Shown here: one piece after another, positions 11,098 to 39,639 of the stretch | How the letters are laid out: each line of letters begins with the position of its first letter | Numbering within the stretch: the stretch's first letter is position 1 | DNA from: Natronomonas sp. CBA1123 | GTDB lineage: Archaea; Halobacteriota; Halobacteria; Halobacteriales; Haloarculaceae | Reading direction: 5' to 3' | NCBI RefSeq assembly: GCF_009741925.1 | Contig: NZ_WPCC01000029.1 | Location: forward strand, 1 to 39,639 | Length of the DNA: 39,639 nt | Notes under the pieces: generated by a model | Told to the model about the DNA's origin: nothing | The model's input: the letters and a program-made list of their open reading frames with translations, nothing else | Database searches by the model: none | Made by a program: the position numbers and the translations under genes

Positions 11098-12099
11098 ATG
11101 ACCGAACGCGACGTGTTCCTCCCGGTCGCCGCACAGCCGAGCGTCGACGCGCTCGTCGAGCAGGCCCAACTCGGCGAGGAGTTGGGCTACGACACCGCGT
11201 GGCTCCCCGAGACGTGGGGTCGCGACGCCGTGACGACGCTCACCTGTATCGCCCGCGAGACGGAGACGATAGACATCGGCACCTCGATTATGCCGGTGTA
11301 CTCCCGCTCGCCCGCGCTCATCGGCCAGAGTGCGGCGACGCTACAGGAGGTCTCGGAGGGCCGATTCCGACTCGGGCTCGGCCCCTCCGGTCCCATCGTC
11401 ATCGAGAACTGGCACGGCGCGGAGTTCGGCAATCCCCTCCGTCGGACGCGGGAGACCGTCGACATCGTCAAGCAGGTCCTCTCCGGCGAGGAAGTCGAGT
11501 ACGACGGGGAGTACTTCGACCTCGAAGGGTTCCGACTGCGCTGTGAGGCTCCCGACCCGGTTCCGCCCGTCGAGACGGCTGGAATGGGTCCGAAGGCGGT
11601 CGAACTCGCTGGCCGGTTCGCCGACGGCTGGCACGCGCTGATGTTGACGCGGGATGGTCTCCGGGACCGACTGGAGGACTTCGAACGCGGCTCGGAGATG
11701 GGCGACCGCGACCGTTCCGAACAGCGCGTCACGCTGTCGTTGACCTGTTGTGCCCTGGAGGACGAAGCAGAGGCGAAACGGCTCGCCAAACAGCACGCCG
11801 TCTTCTACCTCGGCGGTATGGGGACGTACTACCGCGACAACCTCGCCCGACAGGGCCACGAGGAGGTCGCCAACGCCATCTACGACAACTACCAGGACGG
11901 CGACCGCGAGGCCGCGATGGAAGCGCTGCCTGACGACCTCCTGGAACAGTTGGTCGTCTGGGGCACGCCCGAGGGGGCCCGCGAACACTTCGATCGATTC
12001 ACCGATGTCGAGGGCGTCGAAGCCGTCTCGGTGTCGTTCCCACGGGCGGCGAATCTCGAACAAATCGAGTCGACGATGCGAGCACTCCAGCCGCGTTGA
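11098..12099 (+). CDS. LLM-family F420-dependent oxidoreductase
   Basis: This 333-residue TIM-barrel protein belongs to the luciferase-like monooxygenase fold. The segments EELGYDTAWLPETWGRD, GTSIMPVYSRSPALIGQSAATL and RFRLGLGPSGP are the conserved barrel elements. As I recall, haloarchaea carry a named equivalog family, the NP1902A-type F420-dependent oxidoreductases, and this protein fits it in length and start. Haloarchaea make coenzyme F420, so hydride transfer from F420H2 or to F420 is the probable chemistry. It follows the SDR by seven bases, suggesting consecutive redox steps on one substrate. An F420 role is known for the family; the substrate is unknown. Confidence 0.85.
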   Translation: MTERDVFLPVAAQPSVDALVEQAQLGEELGYDTAWLPETWGRDAVTTLTCIARETETIDIGTSIMPVYSRSPALIGQSAATLQEVSEGRFRLGLGPSGPIVIENWHGAEFGNPLRRTRETVDIVKQVLSGEEVEYDGEYFDLEGFRLRCEAPDPVPPVETAGMGPKAVELAGRFADGWHALMLTRDGLRDRLEDFERGSEMGDRDRSEQRVTLSLTCCALEDEAEAKRLAKQHAVFYLGGMGTYYRDNLARQGHEEVANAIYDNYQDGDREAAMEALPDDLLEQLVVWGTPEGAREHFDRFTDVEGVEAVSVSFPRAANLEQIESTMRALQPR

Positions 12100-12225
12100 C
12101 GCCCCTCCCGTTCGGCTCTGCCCTTACCGCTGTTTCCCATATCATTCCAAACCCTACCATTGTTCCCCAATAGAGCTGGTTAGTGCGAAACTGTTAGGAA
12201 CTTTTGGATAGTTGAAGATTCACGC

Positions 12226-12240
12226 GGGGTTCTTAACCCC
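12226..12240 (+). promoter_or_regulatory. Palindrome overlapping the TAXI/TRAP promoter
   Basis: GGGGTT-CTT-AACCCC is a perfect 6-bp inverted repeat. Its centre (TTCTTAAC, 12230-12237) lies 23-30 bp before the ATG at 12260, so the palindrome coincides with the expected TATA position. It could be an operator. Confidence 0.45.
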
Positions 12241-12259
12241 GGGGTCGTTTTGCGACTGT

Positions 12260-13348
12260 ATGGCAGACCAAAAGCCACGACAATCGACACGTCGACGGTT
12301 TCTCGCAACGACCGGCCTCGGTGCCGGAGCGTTCGCCCTCGCCGGGTGTACCGGCGGCAACGGCGGAAACGGCGGTAACGGTGGTAACGGCGGCAATGGC
12401 GGCAACAGCGGTCCCGCACCCGGCTCGGACGGCAACCTCGTGATGACCACGTCGGGGTCGAGTACGACGGCCTACGCCGCGAGTCAGGGCCTCTCGGCCG
12501 CCGTCGAGGAGTACAGCGACGGCTCAGTCAGCATCGACGCCCGACCCAGCAACGGGACCGACGCCAACGTCGCTCGACTCGACCGCGAGGAGAGCGACAT
12601 CGCCTACATCCAGAACTGGACGGCGGAGCGACTCCGACAGGGAGAGGCCCCGTTCGACGACCTTGGCTACGACCCCGTACAGGTGTTCCACCTGTACAAC
12701 CTCCCGTGGATTTTCGCCACCGCCAACGCCGACTGGACATCGGTGACCGACATCGAATCCGACAGTCGCGTCGTCCCGACGCCGCGTGGCTCCGGGACCG
12801 CACCGGCACTGGAGCACGGCCTCAGTTTCGCCGTCGACGGCTACGAGCGCGTCAGCGTCGGCTACGGTGAGTTGGGCGGTGCGTTCAGCGAGGGCCGCAT
12901 CGACTCCGCCGCGATTACCATCCTCAACGGCGACATCGAGCCCGGCTGGGTCCAAGAGATGAAGGGCAGCGTCGACCTTCGACTGCTCGGCTGGCCGGAC
13001 GACGCCGTCGAGTCGATGCGTGAGGACCCCGGCCTGCTGATTCAGGACGTGGACATGACCTCCTTCGAGGGCTACGACTACACCCCGGACACCATCCCCT
13101 CTATCACGTTCGCCTACAACTTCATCAGCCGTCACGACCTCGATTACGACGCGGTCTACGCGCTGCTGGAGACGCTGTACGAGAACCGAGAGAACCTCTC
13201 GGAGTACAACGCCCTGCTGGGCTATCACGAAGAACCGGAGTACTGGGTCAGCGACATGTACGAGGGAATCCCGTTCCACCCCGCCGCCGCCGACTTCTAC
13301 CAGGAAATCGGCGTCTGGAAAGACGAGTTCGAACGGTACGAGGAGTAG
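12260..13348 (+). CDS. TAXI-family TRAP transporter substrate-binding lipoprotein
   Basis: This 362-residue protein has a twin-arginine signal (RRRF at 11-14) and a lipobox (LAGC, Cys30), so it is exported folded by Tat and lipid-anchored outside. A Gly-Gly-Asn repeat linker (about 31-50) follows, as is typical of haloarchaeal binding proteins. The remainder matches TAXI solute receptors, with an early GSSTTAYAASQGLSAAVEE segment for ligand binding. The ATG at 12260 is chosen because the Tat motif begins 10 residues later and a promoter-like palindrome lies about 30 bp upstream. The fused TRAP permease starts three bases after its stop. TAXI systems generally take up organic acids; the ligand is not deducible. 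Confidence 0.93.
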   Translation: MADQKPRQSTRRRFLATTGLGAGAFALAGCTGGNGGNGGNGGNGGNGGNSGPAPGSDGNLVMTTSGSSTTAYAASQGLSAAVEEYSDGSVSIDARPSNGTDANVARLDREESDIAYIQNWTAERLRQGEAPFDDLGYDPVQVFHLYNLPWIFATANADWTSVTDIESDSRVVPTPRGSGTAPALEHGLSFAVDGYERVSVGYGELGGAFSEGRIDSAAITILNGDIEPGWVQEMKGSVDLRLLGWPDDAVESMREDPGLLIQDVDMTSFEGYDYTPDTIPSITFAYNFISRHDLDYDAVYALLETLYENRENLSEYNALLGYHEEPEYWVSDMYEGIPFHPAAADFYQEIGVWKDEFERYEE

Positions 13349-13351
13349 GCC

Positions 13352-15385
13352 ATGGAGCGTGAGGCTCCACTCGGCGTCCGCGAGCGACTCGACCGACCGC
13401 CGGTCGAGTTGGGACTGCGGAGCATCATCTACGCCTTCGCCGTCTTCCTGACGCTGTACACCATCTACTACGCCTACACCCTGTTTTGGGTGCGCGTTCG
13501 CTTCGCGAACGTCTTCCTCGGGGTCGGCGTCGCGCTGTTCTACCTCGTCCAACTGCTGGAGAAACACGTCGCCAAACGGAGCGGGGACGGCCTCGTAGCC
13601 GAAACCGACGACACGGAGTCGTCGCTGTTCGAACACGGTCCGTGGAAGGCACTCGACGTGGTCATGCTTCTCGCCGGCGCCGTCGTGGCGCTGGCCTTGG
13701 CGGGATACGTCGAGTTCAACTTCGCACGACTGCTCGAAGACGCACCCATCTTCGGATGGACGACGACCGACTACTACGTCGGCGTCGCCGCGATGGTACT
13801 CGTCACAGACGCGACACGTCGGGCCTACGGCAACGTCATCGCTGGTGTCGTCGTCGCCGGCATCGCCTACGCCTTCGCCGGCCCCTACCTGCCGGGCGTG
13901 CTGTATCACACCGGCATGGACTGGCAACAGGTCGCCCGCAACGGTGCCATCGGCCTCACGGGCGTCTACGGCTTCATCCTCGAGGTCGGTACCACCGCGG
14001 TCGCCATCTTCCTGATGTTCGCCGGCATGGCGAAGGCCTACGGCCTGATGGACCTCGTGTTGAACCTCAGCCGCGAGGTGCGGAACGTCCTCGAGACCGG
14101 CGTCGTCCAAGTCGCCGTCGTCGGGAGCATGATAATGGGTTCAATCACGGGCAGCGCCGCGGCCAACACCGCGACGACCGGGAGCTTCACGATTCCGATG
14201 ATAAAAGACCAGGGCGTCCGCGAGGACTTCGCGTGTGCCATCGAGTCGGTGGCCTCCAGCGGCGGCCAGATGCTGCCGCCCATCATGGGCGTCGCCGCCT
14301 TCCTCATGGCCGACATCCTGGGTATCCCCTACCTCGAAGTCGTCAAAGCCGGCCTCTTTCCGGCGCTTTTGTTCTACTTCAGCGTCGGCGCCGCGGTCCA
14401 TCTCATCATCCACAAGTTCGACTGGACGACCGACGCCGAGGGAACCTTCGACAAGAGCATCCTACTGGACGGCATCCACTACGTCATCCCGCTTGGCGTC
14501 CTGTTGTACACGCTCGTCGTGTTGCGCTTCTCGCCGCTGAGCGCCGGGTTCTACACCATCGTCGCGCTCGTCCCCTCGGCGCTTCTCAAGCGACTCATCG
14601 ACGCCTACCGCGGGGACGATGAGCCAGTCGAGGTCGCGGTCGATTTCACCGTCACGACCTTCGACGGTCTCCGGCAGGGTGCCGTCGACATGGCACCGCT
14701 GGTCGGCATCCTCGCCTCGCTCGGCATCGTCATCACCATGGTCGAACAGACCGGCCTCGGCGCTCGTATCAGTTTCCGGATGCTCGCGTTAGCCGGCGGG
14801 ATTCTCGTCGTCCTCCTGCTGTTGGCGATGGCGACGAGCATCCTCTTCGGACTGGGGATGCCGACACCCGCCGCCTACATCGTCGTGGCAGCACTCGTCG
14901 CGCCGGCACTGACCACGAGCGAGACGTTCACCATCCAACCCCTGACCGCACACATGTTCGTGTTCTACTTCGCGATGCTGTCAGCGATTACGCCGCCGGT
15001 GGCTGTCGCCGTCGCCGTCGGCGCCCGCATCGCCGACTCGGACTTCCTGCAGTCGTGTAAGCAGGCACTCCGCATCGGCGCCCCCGGGTTCGTCATCCCC
15101 TTCGCGTTCGTCGCCAACGACGGCATCATCGTGTGGTCGTCGTCGACGCCCATCGATTTGCTCGTCGTGTTGGCCGGCACCGTCGCCGTCGTCGTCGCGA
15201 CGGTCGGCTACGACGGCGCCAGCGACCTCGGGTGGCCACACCGCATCGTCTACCTCGTCATCGCCGGCGGGGCGATGTTCGGCCCACAGATGGTGCAACT
15301 CGGCACGGCCGGACTGCTCATGCTGACGCTCGCACTCGCGAACACCGGCCGACTGCCGGCCGTCGTCACTCCCTCTCGACAATGA
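13352..15385 (+). CDS. TRAP transporter fused permease (DctQ-DctM type)
   Basis: This 677-residue membrane protein has the fused layout typical of TAXI systems: about four N-terminal helices corresponding to the small DctQ-like subunit, then the large DctM domain of 12 or more helices. Conserved DctM segments include GSMIMGSITGSAAANTATTG, SSGGQMLPPIMG and LGMPTPAAYI, the paired Gly/Pro-rich hairpins of the elevator domain. It works with the lipoprotein at 12260, probably driving uptake with an ion gradient (Na+ in known TRAP systems). Its ATG at 13352 lies three bases after the lipoprotein stop, which shows an operon. It is followed 70 bp later by a TPP-dependent decarboxylase with its own TATA box. 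Confidence 0.93.
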   Translation: MEREAPLGVRERLDRPPVELGLRSIIYAFAVFLTLYTIYYAYTLFWVRVRFANVFLGVGVALFYLVQLLEKHVAKRSGDGLVAETDDTESSLFEHGPWKALDVVMLLAGAVVALALAGYVEFNFARLLEDAPIFGWTTTDYYVGVAAMVLVTDATRRAYGNVIAGVVVAGIAYAFAGPYLPGVLYHTGMDWQQVARNGAIGLTGVYGFILEVGTTAVAIFLMFAGMAKAYGLMDLVLNLSREVRNVLETGVVQVAVVGSMIMGSITGSAAANTATTGSFTIPMIKDQGVREDFACAIESVASSGGQMLPPIMGVAAFLMADILGIPYLEVVKAGLFPALLFYFSVGAAVHLIIHKFDWTTDAEGTFDKSILLDGIHYVIPLGVLLYTLVVLRFSPLSAGFYTIVALVPSALLKRLIDAYRGDDEPVEVAVDFTVTTFDGLRQGAVDMAPLVGILASLGIVITMVEQTGLGARISFRMLALAGGILVVLLLLAMATSILFGLGMPTPAAYIVVAALVAPALTTSETFTIQPLTAHMFVFYFAMLSAITPPVAVAVAVGARIADSDFLQSCKQALRIGAPGFVIPFAFVANDGIIVWSSSTPIDLLVVLAGTVAVVVATVGYDGASDLGWPHRIVYLVIAGGAMFGPQMVQLGTAGLLMLTLALANTGRLPAVVTPSRQ

Positions 15386-15423
15386 TAGAACCCACTAAAA
15401 GCGGCCGACTTCCGACGGAATCA

Positions 15424-15431
15424 ACTATTTA
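15424..15431 (+). promoter_or_regulatory. TATA box of the TPP enzyme
   Basis: ACTATTTA lies 25-32 bp before the ATG at 15456. Confidence 0.55.
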
Positions 15432-15455
15432 CCGACGGCCGCGGCAGGTAGCACC

Positions 15456-17150
15456 ATGACCGACACCTACACGGGCGCCGACCTGTTCGTCGACGCGCTC
15501 GAGCAGTACGGCGTCGAACACGTCTTCGGCAACCCCGGAACGACCGAGTTGCCCATCATGAACGCGCTGTCCGAAAGCGACGTCGAGTACGCCCTCGGAC
15601 TCCAAGAGGACGTTGCGACGGGGATGGCCGCCGGCTACGCCTCGACCCGACGCTACCACGCCGACGACGACCCCGAAATCTGCCCGGTTGGCGTCGCCAA
15701 CCTTCACGTCACCCCCGGACTCGCACACGGCCTCGGCAACGTCTTCGGTGCGATGTACGGCGGCGTCCCGATGGTCGTCACGGCGGGCAACCACGAACTC
15801 GACTTCCGCCACGAGGAACCCATCCTCACCGGCGACTTAGAACAGATGGTCGAGCAGTTCTGTAAGTACTCCGCCGAGGTGACCCACATCGACGCCTTGC
15901 CGATGCTCGTCCGCCGGGCGTTCCGCGTCGCGATGACGCCGCCGACCGGTCCCGTCTTCCTCGCGCTGCCGGCCGACGTGATGATGACCGAGACGGACGC
16001 CGACCCCGAGCGACTCGGCCCGATTCCCGACGCCGGCGGGGGCGACCCGGCTCAAATCGAGGCCGCCGCCGACCAACTCCTCGAGGCCGACCAGCCCGTC
16101 CTCGTGTTGGGCGACCACGTCGCCCGCGCAGGCAAGGACGCCGTCGACGCCGCCGTCCGACTCGCCGAGGCGACCGGCGCACGCGTCCACGGCGAAATCC
16201 TCGCCAGCGAGGTGAACTACCCGACCGACCACCCGCAGTGGATTTCCTTCATCGGGCCCGACGAGGGCATCGCCTCGATGCTGATGGACACCGACACGCT
16301 GGCGCTCGTCGGCACCTCGACCAACACGACGCTGTTGCACCACGAGAACCCGCTCGTCTCCGAGGACACGACGACGATTCATGTCTCCAGCGACCCCTGG
16401 GAGGTCGGCAAGAATCACCCCGCCGACTCGGCAGTCATCGGCGACCCCGGCCGCGTGATGGACGCCATCGCCGAGCGCGTCGAGGACCGTCTCGACGAGG
16501 AGGAGCGGCAGTCCCGCATCGACTACGTCGAGACGATGAAAGCCAGCCTCGAAGCGACGATGAAGGACCTCGGCGAGGACGAGACACCGGAGGGCGACAC
16601 CCGGTCGTCGAAGGCCGAACTCGTCGACAACATGAAAGCCGTCGACCCGGACACCTACATCGTCGACGAGGGCGTCACCTCGAAGTTCGCCCTCCTCACC
16701 CGATTCCCGATGGAACCCGAACAGTACCTCTCGAACAAGGGTGGCGGCCTCGGCTACGGGCTACCCGCCGCCGTCGGCGCGGCCTTCGCCGAATCCCTGC
16801 AGGACGACCCCCGAAACGTCGTCGGCTACATCGGCGACGGGTCGTATCTGTACTACCCCCACTCGATGTACACGGCGGCCCGTCACGACCTCGATATGAC
16901 CGTCGTCGTCCCCGACAACCGCAACTACCGCATCCTCAAGGACAACACCGTGAAGATGATGGGCGGTGAGGAAGACGACTACGAGTTCGTCGGCATGGAC
17001 TTCGAACCCCACGTCGACATCCCGAAGAACGCCGAGAGCCACGGTGCCCGTGGCCACCTCGTCGAGACGCCCGAGGAGTTCCCCGAGGTGTACGAGGAGG
17101 CGCTCGAAAGCGAGGGGCCGGACGTCATCGACGTGTTGGTCCACGACTGA
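15456..17150 (+). CDS. Thiamine-diphosphate enzyme, benzoylformate-decarboxylase-like
   Basis: This 564-residue protein has the three-domain TPP layout. FGNPGTTELPIM (24-35) and catalytic Glu51 (GLQEDVATG) are in the pyrimidine domain, and IGDGSYLYY followed by a PDNRNYR stretch is the PP/Mg motif. The start closely resembles benzoylformate decarboxylase (GNPG-x-x-ELP), and NLH with His84 matches the place of its active-site His70. This supports a non-oxidative 2-oxoacid decarboxylase rather than an acetolactate synthase. The FAD-type middle domain shows no clear flavin site. It lies directly after a TAXI-TRAP importer, which suggests an imported 2-oxoacid or aromatic acid. The exact substrate is inferred. 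Confidence 0.85.
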   Translation: MTDTYTGADLFVDALEQYGVEHVFGNPGTTELPIMNALSESDVEYALGLQEDVATGMAAGYASTRRYHADDDPEICPVGVANLHVTPGLAHGLGNVFGAMYGGVPMVVTAGNHELDFRHEEPILTGDLEQMVEQFCKYSAEVTHIDALPMLVRRAFRVAMTPPTGPVFLALPADVMMTETDADPERLGPIPDAGGGDPAQIEAAADQLLEADQPVLVLGDHVARAGKDAVDAAVRLAEATGARVHGEILASEVNYPTDHPQWISFIGPDEGIASMLMDTDTLALVGTSTNTTLLHHENPLVSEDTTTIHVSSDPWEVGKNHPADSAVIGDPGRVMDAIAERVEDRLDEEERQSRIDYVETMKASLEATMKDLGEDETPEGDTRSSKAELVDNMKAVDPDTYIVDEGVTSKFALLTRFPMEPEQYLSNKGGGLGYGLPAAVGAAFAESLQDDPRNVVGYIGDGSYLYYPHSMYTAARHDLDMTVVVPDNRNYRILKDNTVKMMGGEEDDYEFVGMDFEPHVDIPKNAESHGARGHLVETPEEFPEVYEEALESEGPDVIDVLVHD

Positions 17151-29982: not shown

Positions 29983-30990
29983 GTGGATTCCGAGCGCCGC
30001 CTCCAGCGGTTGTACGCCGACGACAGCGGCATGTCGCCAGTCGTCGGTGTGGCGCTCATGATTGCGATTACCGTCGCGCTCGCAGCCGTCACCGTCGCGA
30101 TGTTACTCGGCGTCGCCGACCCCGGCATCGCCCCGACACAGGACACCGCCGTGAGTCTCGATTCGACCAACGCCGGAACGGCGCTCGTACCGGAGGTCAC
30201 CGGAAGCAACGACGTCGACGTTCGACTCAACGGCGAGTCGATTGCGACCGTCGACGGCAACGCGACCGGTCGTGAGATATTCCTCCCGACGGCACCGGGC
30301 GACGAGGTGATGCTCGTCACGGAAAACGAGGACGCGACCGTCCTCGTCCGCGAGCAGTTCGAAGCCGGCGAAGCCGGCGACTTCGTGGCGTATTATCCAT
30401 TCACTGGGGGCGGCACGACAGTAGAAGACCACTCGCGGAACGGCAACGATGGGACGTTTCAAAATTCCCCACAGTGGGTCGAAACCGGACAAGGGTCAGC
30501 ACTAGAGTTCGATGGGTCCGACGATTATGTCGCGGTCGACGACCTGAAGACTGCCGGGGTTGGCGATGTCGAAGAATTCACCGTCGCAGTCACGTTCGAA
30601 GTCGACAGCAACGGAGACGTTCAACAGCTCGTCGAACACAACAGCGGTTCCGAGGAGTGGCACATCGAGACGACGAACGACGATGCCCTCCAGTTCGCGG
30701 TGAACTGGGAAGACGGACATAAGATTCGAACGGCGGACGACATCATCGAACCCGACAAAACGTACGTAGCCGTGGGAACCTACGATGGCGAAACGTATCG
30801 ACTCTATCTCAACGGTACCGAAGTCGCCAACGCGACGTACACGTCGGACGTGAACATGGGAGAGATGCAGTTAGGGAAGAACGACCCCGATGACATACAG
30901 TACTTCGACGGCCGCATGTACGAGTTCCGGCTGTACTACACCGCCTTCGATGACCACCAAGTCGAGATGCTGACGCGCGTTTTGGAGTGA
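29983..30990 (+). CDS. Archaeal type IV pilin-like protein with C-terminal LamG-like domain
   Basis: This 335-residue protein begins with a class III signal: a charged leader up to DDSG, then MSPVVGVALMIAITVALAAVTVAMLLG, the hydrophobic helix by which archaeal pilins assemble after prepilin peptidase cleavage. Residues 45-125 are the short haloarchaeal pilin beta domain. From about 132 (FVAYYPFTGGGTTVEDHSRNGNDG) a LamG/concanavalin A-like beta sandwich runs to the end, with FDGSDDYVAV, VAVTFEV, GTYDGETYRLYLNGT and FDGRMYEFRLYY. LamG-like domains bind sugars or proteins, so it may be an adhesive pilin or a surface protein with a pilin anchor. The C-terminal domain's DNA is visibly less GC-rich than the N-terminal part. 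Confidence 0.85.
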   Translation: MDSERRLQRLYADDSGMSPVVGVALMIAITVALAAVTVAMLLGVADPGIAPTQDTAVSLDSTNAGTALVPEVTGSNDVDVRLNGESIATVDGNATGREIFLPTAPGDEVMLVTENEDATVLVREQFEAGEAGDFVAYYPFTGGGTTVEDHSRNGNDGTFQNSPQWVETGQGSALEFDGSDDYVAVDDLKTAGVGDVEEFTVAVTFEVDSNGDVQQLVEHNSGSEEWHIETTNDDALQFAVNWEDGHKIRTADDIIEPDKTYVAVGTYDGETYRLYLNGTEVANATYTSDVNMGEMQLGKNDPDDIQYFDGRMYEFRLYYTAFDDHQVEMLTRVLE

Positions 30991-31577: not shown

Positions 31578-32072
31578 ATGTCGAACCACTATCTCACCTC
31601 CGAGGAACATCTTCCCGAGGAGCCAGGGACCGAGACGACCCTCCAGATAACCGACGCCGAGACGAAACGCATCTTCGAGGCGCGGGTGCGCATCGCCCGC
31701 GAACCGGACGAGCTCACCGACCCGTCTCGGCTGACGGTCGTCGCGGGACCACACGAGAGCGTCCGAAAGGAGTGGTACGTGGAACTGCTCGACGAGGTCG
31801 ATGCGGCTGGTATCAACGAGGACCTGCTCCGCCGGCTTGCCGACGAGCAGGCCTCGACCTCGAACATCATCAACACGCGCTCGAACGACCTGAAGGTGGT
31901 GCTGCGGTATCTCGTCGAGTCGGGACAGTACGAGTCGACCGCGGCCGCACTCCGGGAAATCGCCTTCGAACAACTCGCAGCCGAACGGCCAGCCTTGCTT
32001 GAGGCCTACGAGAGCGTCCGGACCGAGTTCGAGAGCGACCCGCTCCGGGATGCGCTCTCGGAGCGTGAGTGA
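31578..32072 (+). CDS. 18-kDa protein with RHH-like C-terminal region, first gene of the UbiD unit
   Basis: This 164-residue acidic protein is of unknown family. Residues 18-60 look like beta strands (TTLQITDAETKRIFEARVRI). From about 100, NDLKVVLRYLVESGQYESTAAALREIAFEQL follows the ribbon-helix-helix pattern of a strand/helix, a Gly-x-Tyr-x-Ser turn and an Ala-Leu-Arg-Glu helix, so it might bind DNA. ATG 31578 is selected; the frame upstream is Arg-rich and non-coding in character. Its TGA shares its last base with the ATG of the UbiD gene at 32072, so translation is coupled. It may be the unit's regulator or a small subunit. Confidence 0.7.
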   Translation: MSNHYLTSEEHLPEEPGTETTLQITDAETKRIFEARVRIAREPDELTDPSRLTVVAGPHESVRKEWYVELLDEVDAAGINEDLLRRLADEQASTSNIINTRSNDLKVVLRYLVESGQYESTAAALREIAFEQLAAERPALLEAYESVRTEFESDPLRDALSERE

Positions 32073-33574
32073 TGGCGGTCGATTCGTTCCGCGCGTACCT
32101 CGACCGACTGGCCGACGGCGGCGACCTCGCGGAGTTCGAGGCGAGCGTCTCCTGGAACCTGGAGGCGAGTGCGATTACGATGCTCGCCAACCAACGCGAC
32201 GGTCCGATTCCGGCGTTTCGGTCGATAGCGGAATCGGAGACGGACGCCGTCCTCGTGGGAGACCCCTACCGTGGCTCCCGCGAGCGACCGTGGGACCGTA
32301 TCGCCCACTCACTCGGGATGGCGAGTGACCTGAGCGGCGCCGACTACTACGCGGCCGTTATCGACCGGCTCTCCTCGCCTCGGGAGCCACGCGTCGTCGA
32401 CCGTCCGGCCGCACCGTGCAAGGAGGTCGTCAAGACCGGCGGCGACGTCGACCTCCTGTCGTTCCCGTGGCCCTACATCCATCAGGGCGACGGCGGCCGC
32501 TACTCGAACCTCCAGACGCTTGTCGCGCCGGCACCCGACAGCGAGTGGGGCCGCTGGTCGAGCCATCGCATGATGCTCCACGACGAGACGCAGGCGAGTC
32601 TGCTCCTGTTGGCCGGCGAGCAGGTGCCGAACCTCTATTACTACCAGTACGAGCGTCGCGACGAGCCGATGCCGGTCGCCGCTGTCGTCGGCGCCGAACC
32701 CGCCGTCGAGTACAGCGCCGACATGTGGATTCCCAGCGGACGGAGCGAGGCGACCTTCGCGGGCGGGCTGAAAGAAGAGCCCGTCGACCTCGTTACCTGT
32801 GAGACGAGCGACCTCTTGGTGCCGGCGTCGGCAGAGCTCGTCATCGAGGGGCGCGTACTGCCCGGCGAACGCCTCGACGAGGGGCCGTTCGGCGATTACT
32901 TCGGCTACATGAACGGGCCGCGCCGGTCGATGCCGACGTTCGAAATCGACGCGATTACCCACCGGAGGGCGCCGCGTGTCCCCTTCTGTGTCGAAGGGTC
33001 GGGCGTGGGCTACGACCGGAACTCCAGTAGCACGCTTGAAGTCGCCGCCGCCGGCCCGGACGCGACGCTGGGGCTCCGGGCGGCGGGGTTCGACGTCGAG
33101 TTCGCGGTGCCGTGGCGGTTCACCTCTCGGACGGTCTGGGTCATCGCCACCGACTGTCCCTACCCGGGCTATCTTCACGAACTCGCCAACTTCGTTTTCA
33201 CGACGTGGGGGATGCTCCACATCGACTTTTTCGTCTTCGTGGACGCCGACGTCGACCCCTTCGAACCTCGGGCGGTCCTGACGGCGGTCGCCCTCGAGGC
33301 TGACCCCGACGAGGATTTCCACCAGTTCGGCGTCGAGCGCATGCCGAAGGTCCCGCTCAACATCTATCAGACCCCGGATGAGAAGGAGGGCGCCGACGTG
33401 GGGACGTCGAAGGCCAAGACGGCGAAGGCCTACGTCGACGCGACGACCGACGGCGAGTGGGTACGGCGTCACGCCGACGAAGAGCTACGGAAGCGGGCAC
33501 GGGCGGTTCTCCGGGAGGCAGGCGTCTCAGGGGCCGAGTTCGGCTCCGACGAGTCGAGGGGTGAGACCGAGTGA
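32072..33574 (+). CDS. UbiD-family prenylated-FMN decarboxylase, catalytically complete
   Basis: This 500-residue protein has the UbiD three-domain architecture. WSSHRMMLHD supplies the active-site Arg (about 166), and DEGPFGDYFGY supplies Glu270 and Asp275, the E-GPFG-D/E motif of the catalytic triad; Asp at the last position is also found in E. coli UbiD. FPWPYIHQGDGGRYSN is the metal/prFMN phosphate region. It should decarboxylate or carboxylate an aromatic or unsaturated acid using prenylated FMN, which requires a UbiX prenyltransferase not present in the window. It starts at ATG 32072 overlapping the previous stop, and its end overlaps the next gene by four bases. Confidence 0.9.
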   Translation: MAVDSFRAYLDRLADGGDLAEFEASVSWNLEASAITMLANQRDGPIPAFRSIAESETDAVLVGDPYRGSRERPWDRIAHSLGMASDLSGADYYAAVIDRLSSPREPRVVDRPAAPCKEVVKTGGDVDLLSFPWPYIHQGDGGRYSNLQTLVAPAPDSEWGRWSSHRMMLHDETQASLLLLAGEQVPNLYYYQYERRDEPMPVAAVVGAEPAVEYSADMWIPSGRSEATFAGGLKEEPVDLVTCETSDLLVPASAELVIEGRVLPGERLDEGPFGDYFGYMNGPRRSMPTFEIDAITHRRAPRVPFCVEGSGVGYDRNSSSTLEVAAAGPDATLGLRAAGFDVEFAVPWRFTSRTVWVIATDCPYPGYLHELANFVFTTWGMLHIDFFVFVDADVDPFEPRAVLTAVALEADPDEDFHQFGVERMPKVPLNIYQTPDEKEGADVGTSKAKTAKAYVDATTDGEWVRRHADEELRKRARAVLREAGVSGAEFGSDESRGETE

Positions 33575-34998
33575 TTCCCTTCGCGGATTATCTGCGCGGC
33601 CTACGGCGCGACGACGACTTGGTAGCCGTCACCGACGGTCAACGGGGCGACGTTCCGGTGGACGTCCTCGCGGCGGAGGCGCTGGATGGAAACGGTCCGG
33701 CACTCCGGTTCGAGCGAGACGACGGCGTCGACCTGGCAAGCGGGGTTTTCAGCGGTCCGGACCAGATGCACTGCCGTGAGTCCGCCCCGTGGTCGCGGCT
33801 GTCGCTCGGTCTCGGCCTCGATGCGGAGGCGCCGCTCGTGGACTTGCTGGATACCGTCGTCGGCCTCGGGCCGACCGGGACCCCTGGGAAAACTACCTAC
33901 ACCCCACAGGCGGCCTCGCGGACACTGGAGGACCTGCAGGCGCTTTCGTTCCCGCGTGGTGTCGACGACACGTGGCCGGTCATCTCCCTCGGTGTCGCCT
34001 CGATTACGACCGACGCCGGCACACACTGGGCGCCGGTCTACGGCGTCGTCGTGGGTACCGACACCCTCCGGGTTCGCGTGCCCGCGTCGCTGGCGTCGCT
34101 TTCCGACGACGGTGACACCGTTGCCATCGCACTCGGCGTTCCCCCCGCCGCCATCACTGCGGCGTACCTGCTGGCGGTCGCCGACCGGGTCGAATCCCCC
34201 ATCCGGAAGACCGGTGTCGAGGGTGCGGTACCGCTCGTGCCGACCAACGGCGGTCGCGTCCCGAGCGCGACGGAGGTCGTCGTCGAGGCGACCGTCGCGG
34301 ATTCCCAGCCCGATTTCGAACCCGACCGACGGGAAGCCTGGGAGCACGCCGTCGCGGGAGCGTCCCTCGCCCTCGACGTGACCCGCGTCGTCGCGACCGA
34401 GGACCCGGTCGTCCCCGTTTCGCCGGTCGGGCGGCCGATGGCGGACGACTTGCAGTTGACCGGACTGACGACGGCGGCCCACCTCTATCACCGCGTCAAC
34501 AACTACTGGGGCATCTCCCCGGTCGAGTGGCTCCTGCTTCCGCCGTCGACGGAGCTCGGGGTCTGTTTCGTGGCGAGCGACGTACTTTACGCCGGCTTCG
34601 AGTGGCAACTCGCCAACATCCTGTTTTCCTTCTCGTCGCTGTTCGATACGGTCGTCATCGTCGACGGCGACGTCCCATCGTGGGATTTCGGCCGCGTGTT
34701 GAGCGACATCTGGGTGAAGGCCCACCCCTCCCGGGACTGGCTGTTCAGCGAACCGGACGCGCCTGCGGCGAAACGCCCCAACTACCGACAGGATGGGACG
34801 ACAGGCGCCAGACTGTACGTGGACGCGACGTGGGACCCCCGCTGGGACGACTCCTATCTCGCCCCGCGAGTGACTTTCGAGGAGTCCTTCCCCGAATCGG
34901 TCCGTGAACTTGCTCGGGAGTTCTGGTCGGCCCGAGGGTTGGAACCGGCCGACTGCGACCCGATATCTGATGGCCTCGACGGCGGGCCACCGGAGTGA
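33571..34998 (+). CDS. Degenerate UbiD-family paralogue
   Basis: This 475-residue protein follows the UbiD fold end to end: an N-terminal RGLRRDDDLVAV segment, PWSRLSLGLGLDAEAPL, LSFPRGVDDTWPVISLG in place of FPWPY, and a C-terminal LYAGFEWQLANILFSFSSLFDTVVIVDGDV matching YPGYLHELANFVFTTWG of its neighbour. Yet the Arg motif reads APVYGVVVGTD, and the E-GPFG-D motif is gone (PSATEVVVEATVADSQPDFE in its place). It should therefore not bind or use prFMN normally. GTG 33571 overlaps the upstream TGA (GTGA), so it is made in step with the active UbiD. A structural partner is the natural inference, as in carboxylases with two UbiD-like subunits. Confidence 0.8.
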   Translation: MIPFADYLRGLRRDDDLVAVTDGQRGDVPVDVLAAEALDGNGPALRFERDDGVDLASGVFSGPDQMHCRESAPWSRLSLGLGLDAEAPLVDLLDTVVGLGPTGTPGKTTYTPQAASRTLEDLQALSFPRGVDDTWPVISLGVASITTDAGTHWAPVYGVVVGTDTLRVRVPASLASLSDDGDTVAIALGVPPAAITAAYLLAVADRVESPIRKTGVEGAVPLVPTNGGRVPSATEVVVEATVADSQPDFEPDRREAWEHAVAGASLALDVTRVVATEDPVVPVSPVGRPMADDLQLTGLTTAAHLYHRVNNYWGISPVEWLLLPPSTELGVCFVASDVLYAGFEWQLANILFSFSSLFDTVVIVDGDVPSWDFGRVLSDIWVKAHPSRDWLFSEPDAPAAKRPNYRQDGTTGARLYVDATWDPRWDDSYLAPRVTFEESFPESVRELAREFWSARGLEPADCDPISDGLDGGPPE

Positions 34999-35171: not shown

Positions 35172-36854
35172 ATGGTTGAGAGCCACAATCTCCCGGACTA
35201 CGAGTCAGTGCGTGCGGAGTTCTCGTGGGACGATATCTATGCGGAGGCGGACTGGGATGCACCCGAAGAACTGAACGTCGGACACGAAGTAGCCGACCGT
35301 CACGCCACCGACCGCGAGAAGGTGGCGCTGTATCAGGTCGGCACCGACGGCGAACTGAACAAACTGACGTTCTGGGAACTGGCCAACCGGTCGAGCCAGT
35401 TCGCGAACGTCCTCGAAGACCTCGGTGTCGAGGAGGGCGACCGTGTCTTCTCGTATATGCCGCGGATTCCCGAACACTACGTCGCCCTCGTGGGAACGCT
35501 CAAGCGCGGCGCCGTCTGGGGGAGCGTCAACGAGCGATTCGGCCCCGACGGCATCTCCTATCGGCTCGACGACTGTGACGCGAAAGTCGTCGTCACGACC
35601 ACCGACAACCGCGACACCGTCGCCGACGCCCTAGATGACGCGCCGACGGTCGAACACGTCATCACCGTCGACCGTGGCACGGGCGCCCCCGCCGAGGATG
35701 TCGTCTTCAACACGGCACTGGACGACGCGAGCACCGAGTACGACGCCGCCGAGACCGGCGGCGAAGACGACGCAATGTTGTACTACACCTCCGGGACGAC
35801 CGGACTGGCGAAGGGCGTCCTGCATAAACACCGCTGGATTGCGGGCGTCGCAGCCACGCAACGCTACACCGTCGACCTCCAGGAGGGTGACCTCTACTGG
35901 TCGACGGGCGACCTCGGCTGGCTGACCGGGGCCATCAACACCCTCGGTGCGTGGTTCTGGGGGAGTTCGCTGTTCACCTACGAGGGCGAGTTCGACCCCG
36001 AGGAGTGGGCCGACCTCCTCGACGAGTACCCCATCACCGTGCTGTTTTCGGTGCCGACGGCCTACCGGATGCTCCGCGAACACGAGGAGGTCCTCGACGG
36101 CGTCGACCTCGACCTCCGACACGCGCTGTCCATCGGCGAACCCCTCTCTGCGGGCGTCGTCGAGTGGGGCGAGGAGTCGCTGGGCGTCACCATCCTCGAC
36201 ACCTACGGCCAGACCGAGACGGGCAACATGATTATCAACAACTACCCGACGATGGAACTCCGTCCCGGCTCGATGGGCAAACCCCTGCCGGGCATCGAAG
36301 CCGACATCGTCGACCCCGAGACGGGCGAGGTGCTCGGGCCGGGCGAGACCGGCGAAATCGCCGAGCGCGGTGAGTACCCCTGCTTCTTCGACGAATACTG
36401 GCAAAAGCCCGAGAAGACCGCCGACTGCTTCATCGACGGCCCGGACGGCGAGTGGTATCTCTCCGGGGACCTCGCACACAAAGACGAGGACGGCTACTTC
36501 TGGTTCGAAGGACGGGCCGACGACGTCATCCTCTCGTCGGGCTACCGAATCGGCCCCTTCGAGGTCGAGAGTTCACTCGGCGAACACGAAGCCGTCGCCG
36601 AGACCGCTGTCGTCCCCAAACCCCACCCCGAGCGGGGCAACATCGTCAAGGCCTACGTCGTGCCCAGTGAGGGTGCCACCCCCTCGGAGGACCTGAAGGA
36701 GACCGTCAAAACCCACGTGAAGGAGGAACTGTCCGCCCACGAGTATCCCCGCGAAATCGAGTTCGTCGAGGAACTGCCCAAGACGGTGACCGGGAAGATT
36801 CGACGGACCGAACTGCAAGACGAGGCCGAAGAAGAGGCCGAAGTGAGCGCCTGA
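35172..36854 (+). CDS. AMP-forming acyl-CoA synthetase (ACSM/acetyl-CoA-synthetase type)
   Basis: This 560-residue adenylating enzyme shows the P-loop-like YYTSGTTGLAKG (204-215), the A5 motif TYGQTETG, GEWYLSGDLAHKDEDGY, GRADDVILSSGYRIGPFEVE, and PKTVTGKIRR with the C-terminal catalytic Lys. It activates a carboxylic acid to acyl-AMP and then acyl-CoA. The sequence is nearest to the medium-chain/acetyl (ACSM) group, so short or medium acids are expected. It is the first gene of a probable operon with an ACAD (78 bp downstream) and a biotin carboxylase. Lys acetylation of the PKTVTGK site by such enzymes is a known sirtuin target, and a Sir2 gene lies at 22970. Confidence 0.92.
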   Translation: MVESHNLPDYESVRAEFSWDDIYAEADWDAPEELNVGHEVADRHATDREKVALYQVGTDGELNKLTFWELANRSSQFANVLEDLGVEEGDRVFSYMPRIPEHYVALVGTLKRGAVWGSVNERFGPDGISYRLDDCDAKVVVTTTDNRDTVADALDDAPTVEHVITVDRGTGAPAEDVVFNTALDDASTEYDAAETGGEDDAMLYYTSGTTGLAKGVLHKHRWIAGVAATQRYTVDLQEGDLYWSTGDLGWLTGAINTLGAWFWGSSLFTYEGEFDPEEWADLLDEYPITVLFSVPTAYRMLREHEEVLDGVDLDLRHALSIGEPLSAGVVEWGEESLGVTILDTYGQTETGNMIINNYPTMELRPGSMGKPLPGIEADIVDPETGEVLGPGETGEIAERGEYPCFFDEYWQKPEKTADCFIDGPDGEWYLSGDLAHKDEDGYFWFEGRADDVILSSGYRIGPFEVESSLGEHEAVAETAVVPKPHPERGNIVKAYVVPSEGATPSEDLKETVKTHVKEELSAHEYPREIEFVEELPKTVTGKIRRTELQDEAEEEAEVSA

Positions 36855-36932: not shown

Positions 36933-38099
36933 ATGAATTTCGAAACCACACAGGAGCGTTCGATGATACGCTCGACCGCCGAGGATATCGCGGGCGAGTA
37001 CGGACCGGAGTATTGGCGTGAGAAAGAAGAAGACGGCGAGTTCGCCCAGGAGTTCTGGGACGAACTCGGTGCGGCCGGCTTCCACGGCCTGCTGGTGCCC
37101 GAGGAGTACGAGGGCGCCGGCATGGGCATGCAGGAGATGGGCCTTGCCATGGAGACGCTGTGTGCGGAAGGCTGTGGCATGGCCGGCACCTGGTATCTGG
37201 TGTTGACCGCCGGGATGGCCGCCGTCGGCATCCGCGAGCACGGCACCGACGACCAGAAAGAGCGGTACCTGCCCGACATCGCGGCCGGCGACCGGAACTT
37301 CTCTATCGGCATCACCGAACCGGAAGCGGGCACGAACACGCTCAACGTCGCGACCCGTGCCGAGAAGGACGGCGACGAGTACGTCCTCAACGGGAACAAG
37401 GCGTGGATTACCTTCTCCGACCGGGCCGACAACATGATTCTCGTCACGCGGACGACCCCTCGCGAGGAGGTCGACCGCGGCGTCGACGGCATCAGCCTGT
37501 TCGTCGTCGACATGGACGACCCCGGCATCGACGTCTCGCCCATCCCCAAACACGGCATCAACTACTCGAAGTCCTGTGAGGTCTTCATCGAGGACGTCCG
37601 CGTCCCCAAGGAGAACCTGCTGGGCGAGAAAGACAGCGGCTGGTGGACGCTGGTCGACATGCTCAACCCCGAGCGTATCGGCTTCGCCGCCGCTGGGACC
37701 GGAATCGGCAAACTCGCGGCCGATACCGCCATCGAGTACGCCAACGACCGCGAGGTGTTCGACGCACCCGTCGGGAGCCATCAGGGCGTCTCCTTCCCCA
37801 TCACCCAGGCCTACGCGGAGATGGAGACGGCGACGCTCATGCGCGAGAAGGCCGCCTGGCTCTACGACCACGGCGAGGACTGCGGCTACGAGACCAACGT
37901 CGCGAAGGCGACGGCCGTCAACGCCGGCATCGAGGCGGTCAAACAGTCGATGCAGGCCTTCGGCGGCTGGGGCTACGCCAAGGAGTACGACGTCGAGCGC
38001 TGGTGGCGGGAAATCAACCTCACGCGACTGGCGCCGGTGTCCCAGCAGATGGCGTACAACCACATCAGCCAGCAACTCGGCTTCCCGAAGTCCTACTGA
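36933..38099 (+). CDS. Acyl-CoA dehydrogenase, isovaleryl-CoA-dehydrogenase-like active site
   Basis: This 388-residue ACAD has [28 protein letters not shown] and [15 protein letters not shown]. The C-terminal catalytic site reads [10 protein letters not shown], with no Glu. In helix G, however, it has [11 protein letters not shown] with Glu247, the location used by isovaleryl-CoA and long-chain dehydrogenases. With a biotin carboxylase two bases downstream, isovaleryl-CoA oxidation followed by methylcrotonyl-CoA carboxylation is a good hypothesis, although propionyl or longer branched substrates are possible. The ATG at 36933 begins [14 protein letters not shown], a regular ACAD N terminus. 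It belongs to the synthetase operon. Confidence 0.92.
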
Positions 38100-38101
38100 C
38101 C

Positions 38102-39639
<1,538 letters not shown>

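Follow-up and report, generated by a model that had tools for sequence, protein, structure and literature searches.

Three overlapping genes in a haloarchaeal genome encode a UbiD-family protein with a complete catalytic network (P1), a UbiD-fold paralog stripped of the acidic pair of that network (P2), and a small ribbon-helix-helix (RHH) protein (P3). The same trio recurs across the haloarchaea, in genomes that contain no UbiX, and is a real, conserved, and unusual variant of the UbiD system. We propose, with confidence that is evenly balanced, that the trio encodes a heteromeric enzyme of the UbiD type, either a C-C lyase or a carboxylase, which does not depend on prenylated FMN (prFMN) produced by UbiX and in which P2 is a pseudo-subunit.

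The window, that is, the whole 39,639-nucleotide stretch of DNA analyzed, carries the three genes on the same strand near its end, at 31578-34998. The P3 gene (31578..32072, +) runs from the ATG at 31578 to the TGA at 32072 and encodes 164 amino acids, with an N-terminal beta domain and a C-terminal ribbon-helix-helix. It is followed by the gene for P1 (32072..33574, +; ATG start, 500 amino acids), a UbiD family protein with the signature R166-Xn-E270-X4-D275, and by that for P2 (33571..34998, +; GTG start, 475 amino acids), the paralog without the catalytic acidic pair. An earlier, sequence-only reading of this DNA had described the three genes as overlapping, and the coordinates bear this out, with overlaps of 1 nucleotide (P3/P1) and 4 nucleotides (P1/P2). 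The gene row continues with an AMP-forming acyl-CoA synthetase (35172..36854, +; Pfam AMP-binding, E 7e-77), an acyl-CoA dehydrogenase (36933..38099, +), and the biotin carboxylase subunit of an acyl-CoA carboxylase (38121..39637, +; start approximate), an open frame that is cut by the contig end. In relatives, the biotin carboxylase gene is followed on its 3' side by those for a carboxyltransferase and a MaoC-type hydratase. Two other features of the window were recorded. Just upstream of the trio, at 29983-30990 (+), an archaeal pilin N-terminus is fused to a LamG/ConA-like domain, and a gene row at 11098-17150 (+), encoding a luciferase-like monooxygenase, an NMT1-like solute receptor, a DctM (TRAP-type) permease, and a TPP enzyme, is possibly a separate catabolic island.

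P1 scored above the Pfam cut-offs for UbiD (212.7 bits, E 4e-63), UbiD_C (51.2 bits, E 2e-13), and UbiD_N (32.2 bits, E 1e-7), and, among solved structures, PA0254 and Fdc1 are closest to it (E 1e-62). The catalytic network of Fdc1 consists of R173-E277-E282, in the arrangement R-Xn-E-X4-E/D (PMC5818171). Its counterparts in P1 are R166, E270, and D275; this Arg/Glu/Asp triad, already recognized in the sequence-only reading, is invariant in all 46 aligned P1 sequences. In canonical UbiDs, Asp also occurs at the last network position. Against the alpha/beta equivalog models of phenylphosphate carboxylase, TIGR02723 and TIGR02724, P1 reached 153.9 bits (cut-off, 564.6) and 100.8 bits (cut-off, 469), respectively.

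P2 aligns with UbiD along its length and is, as had been claimed, a full-length UbiD-fold paralog. UbiD_C is matched by P2 (E 5e-11) and by all 18 P2 family members, the central UbiD domain lies at the curated cut-off (23.1 versus 23.3 bits; 25.2 bits in another run), and the scores against TIGR02723 and TIGR02724 are 22.2 and 18.4 bits. The P1 and P2 profiles were aligned by hhalign over 438 columns (99.5%, E 5e-23). The AlphaFold model of P2, in which the C-terminal part (residues ~379-440) is of low confidence, had PA0254 and Fdc1 as its top Foldseek matches (E 8e-21). The further claim that P2 has lost all three network residues holds for the window protein, which has Tyr157 at the Arg position and no acidic pair; family-wide, it holds for the acidic pair but not for the Arg. 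The position of Fdc1 E282 is gapped in 46 of 46 P2 sequences and that of E277 has no conserved acid, being mostly Ser, whereas the Arg position is occupied by R in 22 and by H in 19 sequences (R or H in 41 of 46). Residues E250 and E255 of the window P2, which hhalign pairs with E270 and D275 of P1, are not conserved; a Trp-Glu pair is invariant in an alignment of 18 P2 sequences. P2 diverges faster than P1, with identities to the window protein of 38-70% versus 56-76% in most loci. In the tree, P1 and P2 form one clade each, with similar internal groupings, and the tree gives no decision as to whether the two clades are sisters (support for the canonical group, 81/52).

Among 292 Halobacteria genomes, P2 was found in 66, after the removal of two weak matches to ordinary UbiDs (in G218 and G285) from an initial 68, and P3 was found in the same 66. 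We also scanned the genomes of 84,980 species with two short P2 peptide patterns, a search that covers pattern-bearing loci, and retrieved 63 loci, all from haloarchaea (Natrinema, Haloarcula, Halorientalis, Natrialba, Halorubrum, Haloferax, Haladaptatus, and others). As far as these two patterns reach, the trio appears to be confined to haloarchaea as a strict haloarchaeal unit. The order P3-P1-P2 was observed in 63 of the 63 named loci and in nearly all of 46 fetched loci, mostly with 4-nucleotide overlaps, and every fetched full locus had P1 and P2 paired in overlapping genes. The trio that the sequence-only reading had proposed to look for in other genomes is thus present there, with P2 strictly paired with P1. 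Seventeen plasmid records carry the trio. In one genome (G195), it spans both ends of a 140,615-base contig (C16; loci L090 and L091), which suggests a circular plasmid.

The literature presents co-expression of UbiX, the flavin prenyltransferase, as an obligate requirement for UbiD and one conserved UbiX as the companion of UbiD enzymes (PMC10865409). We scored UbiX by TIGR00421, UbiD by PF01977, and the flavoprotein family by PF02441. UbiX was detected in 23 of the 292 genomes, none of which has the trio, and the 89 genomes with UbiD consist of the 66 trio genomes and these 23, with no others. The pattern was replicated in 69 further genomes (12 with the trio, 7 with UbiX, and 19 with UbiD), in which the trio and UbiX sets were again disjoint and together made up all genomes with UbiD. 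In total, 361 Halobacteria genomes contained 108 with UbiD, and UbiX was found in 0 of the 78 trio genomes and in 30 of the 30 other UbiD genomes (Fisher p = 8e-4 when all 361 genomes are counted, for an expected overlap of 6.5, and 2e-27 within the UbiD genomes; these values ignore shared ancestry). The switch between trio and UbiX occurs inside genera, since three of them (g16, g17, and g31) each hold both kinds, and in the non-trio genomes UbiX lies ≤4 kb from UbiD in 26 of 30 cases. Missing sequence is not the cause of the absence, because a number of trio genomes are assembled into 1-5 contigs. A hidden UbiX homolog in the genome of the window was also rejected, as its only PF02441 frame has 402 amino acids; each of 65 trio genomes gave a single strong PF02441 match, whose frame spans ~400 amino acids or more, as would be expected for CoaBC. 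Of all features of the system, this absence of UbiX is the most surprising. It was missed by the sequence-only reading, which proposed an activity assay with prFMN.

Since UbiX is absent, the cofactor would be either not prFMN or prFMN from another source. With slightly less than even probability, P1 would be a UbiD-fold enzyme that retains the Arg-Glu-Asp network but has given up prFMN altogether, relying on FMN or F420 as an alternative flavin or on no organic cofactor, and P2 would be its obligatory UbiD pseudo-subunit. The Mn/phosphate ligands of Fdc1, which we take to be N168, H191, and E233, correspond in the window P1 to R161, Q184, and E226. Across the 46 P1 sequences, E233 is kept in all, H191 is replaced by Gln in all, and N168 is Asn in only 2 and lost in 44; Fdc1 A172 and P226 are replaced by His and Trp, respectively, in 46 of 46. 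A His in the metal-ligand loop is absent from every P1 and present in 12 of 16 canonical haloarchaeal UbiDs, in Escherichia coli UbiD, in Fdc1, and in PA0254; its placement varies among other UbiDs. The loss of two of the three ligands may be a sign of a cofactor change but is suggestive only, because PA0254, which has Ser at the position of the Asn ligand, still binds prFMN with Mn2+ (PMC7976604). We regard it as rather unlikely that P1 is an ordinary prFMN-dependent UbiD supplied by an unrecognized, nonhomologous flavin prenyltransferase or by scavenging within the community. P1 does keep the complete catalytic network for prFMN chemistry (PMC5818171) as well as the E233 ligand, but two of the three metal ligands are replaced, the other UbiD-containing haloarchaea all have a normal UbiX while the trio genomes have none, and no prenyltransferase-like gene was found among the conserved neighbors of the trio.

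The heteromeric (de)carboxylase suggested in the sequence-only reading is plausible, because P2 has a UbiD fold and strictly co-occurs with P1 in overlapping genes. It is common for UbiD proteins to form homo-oligomers, and P2 may have an active site of its own, as judged from the invariant Trp-Glu pair and the R or H in 41 of 46 sequences; P1 and P2 could then be separate homo-oligomers that are linked by a pathway only, P2 having its own function. We consider this improbable, given that P1 and P2 are strictly paired, with overlapping genes, in all full loci fetched. Moreover, phenylphosphate carboxylase (Ppc) uses several UbiD-type subunits (PMC6114531), as does naphthalene carboxylase, judged by gene content (PMC12016498). 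It also speaks against the preferred reading of a UbiX-independent complex that co-occurrence in an operon can reflect a shared pathway instead of a complex, and that the two operon contexts described below share no obvious single substrate.

P3 is composed of an N-terminal beta domain (strands within residues 4-74) and a C-terminal RHH domain (about residues 95-140), in agreement with its earlier description as RHH-like. Structural alignment with VIA-align gave SegB (Z 6.6, over residues 80-153, and Z 6.0) and ParD (Z 4.5), the ParD model was matched by 4 of 18 P3 members, the CdrS model was also matched, and ParD/CopG chains were the sole, weak matches in a PDB profile search. No trustworthy match was obtained for the N-terminal domain. 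A role as an LpdD- or Vdc-type chaperone was rejected for P3, since no such model matched and the VIA-align hits listed with Z > 4 were the RHH proteins SegB and ParD only. There is an even chance that P3 is a transcriptional autoregulator only and not part of the enzyme, which would be compatible with a P1/P2 complex. The RHH domain, of a DNA-binding type, and the position of P3 as first gene of the operon argue for this; on the other hand, the association of P3 with the trio is roughly as tight as that of P2, and within 140 bp upstream of P3 we found no shared palindrome, with TATA-like elements in some genera only. In one genome (G213), a P1-P2 pair lacks a neighboring P3, another copy has a P3 that is shortened and divergent, and an intact P3 homolog stands alone elsewhere; features were noted in it at L058:9475-9972 (-) and L059:11546-11953 (-).

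The trio occurs in two recurrent contexts, both of acyl-CoA catabolism, and stands at the entrance of CoA-ester catabolism. (i) In context A, that of the window, it is accompanied by the acyl-CoA synthetase, which has the same place in other context A loci, the acyl-CoA dehydrogenase, the biotin carboxylase, the carboxyltransferase, and the MaoC-type hydratase; by inference, this set resembles a branched-acid (isovalerate/leucine-like) module. (ii) In context B, it is found with an MBL-fold hydrolase, a thiolase, an HMG-CoA-synthase-like protein, an aldehyde dehydrogenase, and phenylacetyl-CoA epoxidase genes. Because the two contexts differ, no single substrate is supported, and its assignment from operon content was rejected: a branched-acid-like carboxylase module and phenylacetate have none in common. 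The MBL hydrolase was also rejected as an obligatory fourth gene, as its placement beside the trio is largely a feature of the phenylacetate context. The genome of the window contains, on another contig (G000:C67:3286-4191; L173 and L175), a 51%-identical copy of this hydrolase between two AMP-ligase genes and an acyl-CoA dehydrogenase. Phenylacetyl-CoA epoxidase (PaaC-type) genes lie on yet another contig (G000:C28:50224-52138), the trio itself being in the carboxylase context.

In the mechanism we propose, P1 would be the catalytic subunit, using Arg166-Glu270-Asp275 on a carboxylate that is either its substrate or its product, and P2 would be a dedicated subunit that pairs with P1 in a structural, allosteric, or substrate-shaping role. 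P3 would be accessory, most likely with a part in autoregulation or assembly. The carboxylic acid that the reaction makes or uses would stand at the start of acyl-CoA catabolic routes, namely, those of the ligase, dehydrogenase, and biotin carboxylase in the window and the phenylacetate pathway in other haloarchaea. UbiD has been described as obligately tied to UbiX and prFMN (PMC10865409), and the trio clade departs from this in 78 genomes. A catalytic network without UbiX implies either a second route to prFMN or UbiD chemistry without prFMN, and either one would change the understanding and engineering of the family. In addition, the stripped partner P2 offers a clean test of the role of second UbiD subunits in multisubunit (de)carboxylases.

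We found no paper on the trio in the literature on haloarchaeal UbiD, and compared it with four types of known systems. (i) Like the trio, the phenylphosphate carboxylase PpcABCD of Thauera aromatica has two UbiD-type subunits (about 54 and 53 kDa) plus small subunits and is linked to a CoA-ligase route (PMC6114531). However, its 18-kDa delta subunit is an HAD-type phosphatase and its gamma subunit has 10 kDa (PMC6114531), and P3 was rejected as either, because it has an RHH domain and matches no Ppc or Vdc subunit model; the analogy drawn earlier for the small protein is thus not supported. It is very improbable that the trio is an ordinary Ppc-like enzyme, known in kind. In favor are the two UbiD-type proteins and small protein in one operon and the matches of P1 to TIGR02723 (154 bits) and TIGR02724 (101 bits), but these scores are far below the equivalog cut-offs, neither an HAD-type phosphatase nor a Ppc gamma gene was found in the conserved neighborhood clusters, and the trio genomes lack UbiX; membership in Ppc was therefore rejected. 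(ii) Naphthalene carboxylase and the anaerobic benzene carboxylase (AbcA) share with the trio several UbiD-like subunits per cluster and, as a parallel to its setting, carboxylation followed by CoA ligation; they differ in coming from anaerobic bacteria, with four UbiD-like subunits and prFMN as the proposed cofactor, and the available part of the source mentions no RHH protein (PMC12016498). (iii) PA0254/HudA and Fdc1 have the same R-Xn-E-X4-E/D network as P1 but are single-subunit prFMN decarboxylases that need UbiX and keep the metal-ligand His. We know of no stripped partner for either. (iv) The hydroxyarylic acid decarboxylases VdcBCD and LpdBCD likewise combine a UbiD with a small accessory protein. 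In contrast to the trio, their B subunit is a UbiX homolog; no UbiX-like B was found in the trio genomes, and P3 matches no D-type family. LpdD is a beta-sandwich prFMNH2 chaperone with the metal site H35-H61-D63 (PMC10865409), whereas P3 carries an RHH domain.
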